64,000 nucleotides of DNA from Bacillaceae bacterium (lineage in GTDB: Bacteria; Bacillota; Bacilli; JACDOE01): positions 1-64,000 of the forward strand of contig JACDOE010000013.1 of the NCBI GenBank assembly GCA_017656255.1. The letters run 5' to 3'. The notes under the pieces were generated by a model. That model was not told the DNA's origin. It did not search any database and was given only the letters and a program-made list of their open reading frames with translations. Positions 56,801-59,043 of this stretch are shown here, one piece after another (the first letter of the stretch is position 1; every line of letters starts with the position of its first letter). Both the position numbers and the translations under genes were made by a program.

Positions 56801-58246
56801 TTAATCTTCCTGATTCAGGGTTCCCCGCTTCATAAATGGTCTTGGAACCCGAATGAAACTGTCCCGAAAATTAGATAATTTGAACGGTGTCAGCGGAGAC
56901 AGGTAAGGATAACCGAAGTTTTCCTTCCTGACCAGGTGAATGATCATAAGCATGAGATAGGAAAAAATACCCAACACCCCGAAAACAGCCGCAATGAGAA
57001 TCATCGGATAACGCAACAGACGAATCAACACACTTCCCCGGTAAATTGGAACGGCAAAACTGGCGATGGCTTCGAGGGCGACCACGATAATAACGGTAGC
57101 ATTCAGCAATCCGGCCTGAACCGCAGCCTGTCCGACCACCAATGTCCCGAACAGGGTAATCGCCTGAGCGATGTTTCCCGGTGTCCAGCGACTGGCTTCA
57201 ATCACGATCTCCAGCGCAACTTCCAGTAACAAAACCTCCACCCAGATGGGAAACGGAATCCCCTGCCTGGCCTGCATCAGTGATTGTATCAGGAGGAACG
57301 GTAATAATTCATGATTCACCATGGTTAACGCTACATAGAAAGAGGTGATGGTAAAGGCCAGAAACAGGGCTACCATACGGAGAATACGAATTAAGGATGC
57401 GAGAATCGGATTGTAGTAATGGTCATCGGGCGCCATCAGAATCTGGGAAAAAGAAATGGGCAATATAGCGGCGACCGGAGAATTGGGTACCATCAGCATA
57501 ATTCTTCCCTCAATGAGATTGGAAATGGTACTGTCCACGCGTTCCGTATAATAAAAATTGGGAAATGGCGACAGTCCCCGGTCGGTGATCCATTCTTCGA
57601 GGTAGTGAGGATCTAAAAGGTGATCCACTTTCACTTTTTTTAATCGTTTTTCTACTTCCTGAACCACATCGGGATCCGCTTTTTTATTCACATAGGCAAT
57701 CAGTACTTTTGAGCGTGCTGTTGGTATCGATACCTGCCGAAAACGTAATGCCGGGGAATTGACATATCGTCTGATCAGCGCCAGGTTTTCCTTGATATTC
57801 TCATTAAAACCCACATGGGGGCCCAGTGTAATTTTTTCATATAGGGGTTCATCATGTCCCCGGTTTAAATCCAGACCGGTATTCACCGCCAGTCCACCGT
57901 CCCGCCCTTTGATTAGAATGGCAGCGAATCCCTGAATTAACAGGCTTCCCAGTTCTTCCACCGTCTTAAAGTCGGAGATTTCATACGTTTGCAGATCGGT
58001 TCTGATATGGTCCGGTGTGATGTCTTCCTGATTTTCGGCGATTTCCTCCAAAGGGACCAACACCTGTTTCGTCAGTTTTTTCTCGTCAATCGTGTTTTGG
58101 AGATACACAAGCGTGATAACCCGGTGATCGGATACGCGGTGCTCTCGAATGACGAGATCAGGGGGTTCCCCCAGATAGTTTTTCAGGGGATTGATCCAAT
58201 TTTTGACCAGCCTGCTTTCCGGCTTTATTGTCGGGCGAAAAGTCAT
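56801..58246 (-). CDS. gerA: Germinant receptor subunit GerA
   Basis: A subunit of the germinant receptor, 481 aa. A soluble N-terminal domain (about 1-280) is followed by four or five helices. Conserved segments: FNENIKENLALIRRYVNSPA, DPHYLEEWITDRGLSPFPNF, EGRIMLMVPNSPVAAILPIS and FGTLVVGQAAVQAGLLNATV, then NFGYPYLSPLTPFKLSNFRD. The frame stays open far upstream through antisense of the Gln-rich gene, but GAGG nine bases before the ATG at 58246 fixes the start. A CATTATA sigma-G-like -10 lies about 45 bases upstream with imperfect spacing to a GCATA -35. Confidence 0.95.
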   Translation of the reverse strand: MTFRPTIKPESRLVKNWINPLKNYLGEPPDLVIREHRVSDHRVITLVYLQNTIDEKKLTKQVLVPLEEIAENQEDITPDHIRTDLQTYEISDFKTVEELGSLLIQGFAAILIKGRDGGLAVNTGLDLNRGHDEPLYEKITLGPHVGFNENIKENLALIRRYVNSPALRFRQVSIPTARSKVLIAYVNKKADPDVVQEVEKRLKKVKVDHLLDPHYLEEWITDRGLSPFPNFYYTERVDSTISNLIEGRIMLMVPNSPVAAILPISFSQILMAPDDHYYNPILASLIRILRMVALFLAFTITSFYVALTMVNHELLPFLLIQSLMQARQGIPFPIWVEVLLLEVALEIVIEASRWTPGNIAQAITLFGTLVVGQAAVQAGLLNATVIIVVALEAIASFAVPIYRGSVLIRLLRYPMILIAAVFGVLGIFSYLMLMIIHLVRKENFGYPYLSPLTPFKLSNFRDSFIRVPRPFMKRGTLNQED

Positions 58247-58402
58247 AATAACCGTCCTCAATGTGATTTTTGTTATAATGTTCCTTTTAAACCGGGGCTT
58301 TATGCACAACGGCCATGAATAAAACCTGTGACATGATAAAAGATATAACATGTGAACTTCACAGGAAGTTCCCAATCTCAACACTTTCAGGAGGTTATGA
58401 AT

Positions 58403-58708
58403 TTGGCACAGCAACAACAACAGCAACAGGCTATTCAACAGGCCCAGCAGGCACAGCAACAACTGCAACAGGCCCAACAACAACTGCAGCAGGCCCAGCA
58501 AAACAACAATCCGCAGCAGATGCAACAGGCGCAACAACAGATGCAACAGGCACAACAGCAGGCTCAACAGGCCCAGCAGCAACTGCAGCAACAGCAAAAC
58601 ATGGCTGACCAGCAGCAAATGCAACAACTTCAACAGGCACAACAACAACTGCAACAAGCTGTCCAACAGGCCCAACAGATGCAGCAGGCCCAGCAAAATA
58701 TGCCGTAA
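58403..58708 (+). CDS. Gln/Ala heptad-repeat protein (about 102 aa)
   Basis: Almost pure Gln with Ala, Leu and Met. Hydrophobic residues recur with a 3-4 spacing (A-QQQ-L-QQ-A-QQQ-L-QQ), the pattern of a coiled coil whose polar positions are all Gln; one break occurs at NNNP and one at MADQ. Codons CAA and CAG are mixed irregularly, which argues against a simple triplet expansion and for selection on the protein. TTG at 58403 is eight bases after AGGAGG; the ATG at 58397 is only two bases away. It is divergent from the germination operon, 156 bases from gerA, and ends at a strong terminator. A spore structural role is plausible. Confidence 0.75.
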   Translation: MAQQQQQQQAIQQAQQAQQQLQQAQQQLQQAQQNNNPQQMQQAQQQMQQAQQQAQQAQQQLQQQQNMADQQQMQQLQQAQQQLQQAVQQAQQMQQAQQNMP

Positions 58709-59043
58709 TATCCATAACATTGTTATGGTCAACGCAGAAAGCCCCTCCAATGGAGGGGCTTTCTTTTGGTTTAGCATCATCTTTGAAATGCCTGAGGAGA
58801 AAAATCGACATGATCATGACCGGAAGAACAAGGACGACGCTGATCGGAAGCCAGTACGTCGAGTGTTTTATAAGGATCCCGTCAACACCGCCGTGGTGTT
58901 TTACCGCAGAAGAGGTTGTCTGTCCACAGATCGTTAACTCACACCTGATGATAAAGTCAGCCGAGGTAAATGCCGTTTCTAAGTGTACTCAGGTAACATA
59001 TTTTGAATATAAGGACATTGTTTGCCGGTAAGGAGCGATTGTG
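58709..59043. other. Intergenic stretch after the Gln-rich gene
   Basis: Apart from the terminator at 58737-58767 I see no supported gene. A 49-codon frame from 58788 has no ribosome binding site, and the antisense frame runs through the terminator without a start codon. Confidence 0.5.
58737..58767 (+). terminator. Terminator of the Gln/Ala heptad gene
   Basis: GAAAGCCCCTCC and GGAGGGGCTTTC pair perfectly around a 3-base loop, followed by TTTT on the plus strand. Confidence 0.85.

Follow-up and report, generated by a model that had tools for sequence, protein, structure and literature searches.

Small glutamine-rich proteins of spore-forming Bacillota, a proposed SASP-like glutamine reserve of the spore core

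Introduction

What is the function of a small protein, built almost entirely of glutamine, whose gene lies opposite a germinant receptor operon? The gene is found in the window, the whole 64,000-nucleotide stretch of Bacillaceae contig JACDOE010000013.1 that was analysed. The initial annotation, made from the letters alone, described its product as a self-assembling spore structural protein expressed with germination genes. The gene belongs to a family, here called the Q family, that is apparently undescribed in databases and in the open-access literature, where nothing was found on Gln-rich spore proteins or on tRNA-Gln in the forespore. It would be a widespread spore protein family missed by standard searches because low-complexity filters hide it. 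It would also be a natural case of a folded, soluble protein with more than 50% Gln (the fold being predicted), which is relevant to polyglutamine folding.

The gene in the window

The window protein contains 64 Gln, 15 Ala, 7 Met, 5 Leu, 5 Asn, and 2 Pro residues and one each of Ile, Val, and Asp, the last being its only charged residue. The reading frame, TTG start, glutamine richness, and good ribosome-binding site given in the initial annotation are all confirmed (Table 1). The TTG is preferred as the start over an alternative in-frame ATG at 58397 because that ATG is only 2 nt beyond the Shine-Dalgarno sequence. The Gln codons are mixed as described (33 CAA and 31 CAG) and Ala is encoded by GCC, GCA, GCT, and GCG, so the gene is not a simple DNA repeat.

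A whole-length Fourier test at 3.5 residues failed on this protein owing to helix breaks and was replaced by spacing statistics. Of the gaps between successive A/V/L/I/M/F residues, 20 of 28 are 3 or 4, against a mean of 7.1 in composition-preserving shuffles, none of which (0/5000) reaches 20. The 3-4 spacing of Ala, Leu, and Met claimed at the outset is thus real, although "strict" slightly overstates it: the heptad phase breaks at two turns, NNNP (34-37) and NMAD (66-69). The strong terminator of the initial annotation corresponds to a hairpin with a T-rich tail; one such terminator-like site is about the shuffle expectation. A scan of 58200-58850 against Rfam gives no match. An imperfect inverted repeat, CTGTGACATG...CATGTGAACTTCACAG, which may serve as an operator or form an RNA hairpin, occupies 58326-58365 in the gap separating the gerA operon from the Q gene.

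Table 1. Features at and around the glutamine-rich gene of the window
Feature	Position	Strand	Basis or remark
gerA-type germinant receptor subunit A, divergently oriented; pairing with the Q gene not conserved	56801..58246	-	family matches and neighbourhood comparison
Candidate sigma-G promoter GAATA-17-AAAGATA, 7/9 consensus positions	58317..58345	+	best on this strand, position typical of the family
Shine-Dalgarno AGGAGG	58389..58394	+	8 nt to TTG
Gln-rich protein gene (101 aa, 63% Q; TTG start, TAA stop)	58403..58708	+	ORF reading, composition, relatives
N-N-P inter-helix turn, codons 35-37, invariant in the family	58505..58513	+	family alignment and AlphaFold model
Stop codon TAA	58706..58708	+
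Intrinsic-terminator-like hairpin, 13 bp, T-rich tail	58736..58764	+	sequence scan

Distribution and conservation of the family

Protein searches with phmmer and tblastn returned no relatives because of low-complexity correction, and relatives were instead sought by DNA patterns and degenerate-codon patterns. A DNA search of 61 class-level relatives revealed small Q-rich genes with a central xNPQQLQQAQQQLQQAQQ motif. The exact degenerate pattern matches 23 contigs among 84,980 species genomes, all from Bacillota; carriers include Virgibacillus, Oceanobacillus, Metabacillus, Neobacillus, Anaerobacillus, Alicyclobacillus, Ammoniphilus, Paenibacillus, and several Clostridia MAGs. A relaxed pattern is positive in 39 of 399 Bacilli genomes, a few of which are non-members, while the same pattern read backwards as a control is positive in 1. 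Pfam and NCBIfam scans yield no model for the family, and weak matches in some members (DUF4398, DUF2564, SesA, and others; best E about 2e-4 or weaker) were rejected as coiled-coil noise.

Depending on the analysis, 22-34 members from Bacilli and Clostridia were examined. They are 70-150 aa long, with most between 85 and 110 aa, and bear almost no charge; Gln averages 54% and Ala 16% of residues, with Glu at 0.6% and Asp at about 0%. Alignment of 22 members gives 24 invariant columns including N36-P37, and 3-4 spacing exceeds that of shuffles in 22/22 (p<=0.03 each). The window gene shares the family pattern: an NPQQ-(L/M/I)-QQAQQQ-(L/M)-QQ core and A/L heptads in a small, stand-alone gene with a Shine-Dalgarno sequence. 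Family genes have their own ribosome site and usually a terminator, with a terminator-like site behind the gene in 26 of 34 relatives against 5.6 expected. Codon choice tracks genome G+C (43 CAA and 12 CAG at 43% GC; 17 CAA and 34 CAG at 62% GC) while the protein stays constant, and selection is therefore on the protein.

In some lineages the family is multicopy, as shown by one genome whose Q-rich pattern matches fall on three separate contigs (L092 and related places in G069). A short copy of 55 aa, annotated as hypothetical, is carried by Peribacillus frigoritolerans plasmid NZ_CP085396.1 (L142:3991-4158), where its neighbours are a cation:proton antiporter gene and a fragment of GerAB type.

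Predicted structure

AlphaFold (AF2, family alignment) predicts three helices for both the window protein (2-34, 37-63, and 70-98; pLDDT 81, pTM 0.68) and a clostridial member (3-29, 32-56, and 62-90; pLDDT 85, pTM 0.72), although AF2 models of low-complexity coiled-coil sequences are to be read with care. In the predicted family fold, three amphipathic helices pack compactly around an A/L/M core and expose a surface made up entirely of Gln. A fold search of solved structures finds no significant resemblance. The sole match in a PDB sequence search, a designed repeat protein at E=0.002, is not meaningful.

The self-assembling fibre of the initial annotation finds no support in these models. 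A long uninterrupted heptad register is absent, since the invariant N-P turn and the second turn divide the protein into three predicted helices of 27-33 residues. This would yield a closed three-helix bundle, unlike the continuous heptad of fibre-forming proteins.

Promoters and probable forespore expression

The B. subtilis sigma-G promoter consensus is GNATR-17/18-CATNNTA, which was scored here across a family that spans Bacilli and Clostridia. In 34 upstream regions the motif is strongly enriched (z=10.2), with 7 perfect sites against 0.1 expected. The sigma-A, -F, and -K motifs are about chance in the same regions; those of sigma-E and -H score a little above it, with hardly any sites close to consensus. 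Enrichment is repeated in 17 loci outside the first set (z=6.4), which include a few looser relatives. Matches of >=8/9 occur in 22/34 family upstreams and 17/280 upstreams of neighbouring genes (p=4e-15). The 7/9 match of the window copy is weak and alone not significant.

Alpha/beta SASP genes are present in 37/39 pattern-positive genomes and 232/360 negatives (p=2e-5). The two exceptions encode unrelated Q-rich proteins that are non-members, and true members occur only in spore-forming genomes that carry SASP genes. Together with the sigma-G enrichment, this restriction argues for late forespore expression. The promoter statistics point to transcription by sigma-G, which would place the protein in the forespore core rather than the coat. 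The earlier proposal of a spore protein is therefore supported on other grounds, namely family-wide sigma-G enrichment and restriction to SASP genomes. Its germination neighbours provide no basis for it, as synteny is not conserved.

Neighbouring protein genes

No protein-coding neighbour is conserved across the family loci, so the position of gerA opposite the window gene is incidental, and functional coupling to gerA was dropped. The gerA-type operons of Bacillus are also sigma-G genes, and only to that extent is expression "with germination genes" plausible.

In Anaerobacillus arseniciselenatis, a DUF1657 gene (E=1e-14; L046:3152-3388, minus strand) lies directly upstream of the Q-rich gene. 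DUF1657 genes are found within sigma-G spoVA2mob operons, and the DUF1657-domain protein 2Duf is believed to reside in the inner membrane and is linked to wet-heat resistance (PMC10126465). The L046 operon thus ties the family, once, to a spoVA2mob-type inner-membrane gene set.

Linkage to tRNA-Gln

A solitary tRNA-Gln(UUG) lies on the same strand about 30-100 nt downstream of the Q gene in 7 of 23 named loci, and 10 such loci are found in total in 7 Bacillaceae genomes. The adjacent copy is one isoform, identical over 72 nt in three genera (ten genomes were searched with one such tRNA), whereas the remaining tRNA-Gln copies of those genomes match it at 89-93% identity; ordinary copies mostly sit in large tRNA clusters. 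The adjacent isoform (L031:2836-2911, L032:6563-6636, and L037:6535-6608) differs from cluster copies: its acceptor pair is A-U instead of G-C, its anticodon stem holds what appears to be an A-C mismatch, and its variable loop is one base shorter. The gap between Q gene and tRNA holds a hairpin and is only 30-48 nt in most loci, which leaves little room for a separate tRNA promoter.

In Bacillus sp. V3B, four Q-rich paralogues were found (L098, L099, L100, and L050), and all four are followed by their own solitary tRNA-Gln(UUG). Two were predicted from the tRNA alone, as two further isoform copies had Q genes beside them; a third tRNA locus gave another. Among the V3B paralogues, the tRNA occurs in two different isoforms and the spacer is of either 31 or 100 nt; co-duplication in this genome speaks against chance linkage. 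The linkage is patchy and confined to some Bacillaceae: it is absent from the window copy and from the Clostridia loci, and a search of 119 other genomes, taken as relatives of one carrier, gave no tRNA-Gln cassette. Part of it could be chance, given that in two other genomes, related to each other, a tRNA-Ser(CGA) follows the Q-rich gene on the same strand at about 150-210 nt (L069 and L070). Where present, a tRNA-Gln behind the Q gene suggests bulk production in spores. If the coupling is real, the gene brings along the tRNA supply that its product, extreme in composition, requires.

Comparison with known spore proteins

SASPs are under sigma-G control (PMC3533761), are degraded at germination, and supply amino acids (PMC7649253). 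The closest parallel to the Q family is gamma-type SASP (SspE, PF04259), which is likewise small, Gln-rich, repetitive, spore-former specific, and preceded by a sigma-G-type promoter (a candidate one in the Q family, 7/9 in the window copy). SASPs act as an amino-acid reserve (PMC7649253), the role proposed here for the Q family. However, the Q family lacks a GPR-type cleavage motif (TEFASE), has about 54% Q and nearly no charge in a predicted heptad bundle, and also occurs in Clostridia, from which SspE is reported absent (PMC3533761). The window protein has no PF04259 match, nor is one among the families listed for its relatives. Gamma-SASP is present in 19/33 genomes with the Q family and 29/47 without (p=0.82), and the window genome has both; with no anticorrelation, the idea that the Q family replaces gamma-SASP was rejected.

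Alpha/beta-type SASPs (PF00269) resemble the Q family in being small, forespore-type, and multicopy in some genomes, but the Q family has no sequence match to PF00269. It also lacks basic residues, so DNA binding in the manner of alpha/beta SASPs is unlikely. DUF1657 (PF07870) proteins are small and helical with a Q-rich second helix and belong to sigma-G operons, one of them the Anaerobacillus operon above. They differ in having two helices, charge, and a separate Pfam family; among the matches listed, no Q-family member matches PF07870, while the L046 neighbour does. GerQ is a Gln-rich, transglutaminase-linked coat protein expressed in the mother cell. Gln richness in a spore protein is the likeness; coat location and mother-cell expression are GerQ's, and no similarity to the Q family was found.

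Two further proteins (L071 and L072), about 200-400 aa long, begin with a short helical stretch rich in Gln, and behind it come gamma-SASP-like repeats such as FAGTEAQQVRQ. L072 has no PF04259 match, and L071 has a perfect sigma-G site.

Proposed role and alternative explanations

Probable sigma-G control, a near-uncharged bundle of more than half Gln, and in some cases a tRNA-Gln make the Q family look like a bulk forespore product. It is probably a SASP-like spore-core protein and a compact glutamine reserve. Q-family proteins would be made by sigma-G transcription in the late forespore and, like SASPs, end in the spore core. Bulk synthesis would provide a compact, inert store of glutamine (amide nitrogen and glutamate) that would be broken down after germination, and the uncharged bundle may also fill or protect the dry core. 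The family itself, its conserved fold pattern, the promoter enrichment, and the tRNA linkage are observed; forespore expression, abundance, a reserve role, and degradation are what we infer from them. Against a reserve, the SASP-type protease site is missing, Glu and Asp are nearly absent, and the conserved N-P turn and heptad core exceed the needs of a mere store. The whole reading, a sigma-G forespore family of Gln three-helix bundles forming a bulk spore-core reserve, is favoured tentatively, at slightly below an even chance. Strains without a Q-family protein would then offer a way to ask what nourishes a germinating spore.

In several Bacillaceae, the transcription unit would end in tRNA-Gln, raising glutaminyl-tRNA supply as a protein of about 55% Gln is made. 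The forespore reserve bundle would then travel in some lineages with a dedicated tRNA-Gln, one sigma-G unit supplying both the message and an otherwise limiting tRNA. This extension is conceivable, with the balance of probability leaning against it.

An unlikely but still serious alternative gives the protein a structural or scaffolding role in the spore core or at the inner membrane, its Gln-surfaced bundles packing together or on inner-membrane proteins; this is the self-assembly of the initial annotation transferred to the forespore. The conserved heptad core and N-P turn fit such a role, as does the L046 Q gene directly after a DUF1657 gene, given the inner-membrane and wet-heat link of 2Duf (PMC10126465). 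However, that neighbour occurs in a single locus, no protein partner is conserved, and the predicted bundle is closed rather than a continuous fibre.

Improbable too is a desiccation or heat protectant, a LEA- or hydrophilin-like shield in which uncharged hydrophilic helices act as filler against aggregation of core proteins at low water. Its extreme hydrophilicity without charge, sigma-G timing, and lack of a catalytic signature agree with this role, but the protein is predicted to be folded, not disordered, and Pfam/NCBIfam scans give no LEA or hydrophilin family match. Very high Gln content and restriction to spore formers would also suit a GerQ-like Gln donor for transglutaminase cross-linking of the spore coat; this is very improbable, as sigma-K promoters at chance level give no sign of the mother-cell expression needed by a late coat protein. 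Finally, on the antisense strand the gerA frame remains open across the entire Q gene (56801-58780, minus strand; a 659-aa mechanical ORF), reading poly-Leu because CAA and CAG become TTG and CTG. A non-coding low-complexity tract or spurious ORF, such as an antisense poly-Leu extension of gerA, is nevertheless refuted: in dozens of genomes that have no gerA on the other strand, the family is conserved with codon changes and has its Shine-Dalgarno sequences, promoters, and terminators on the coding strand.
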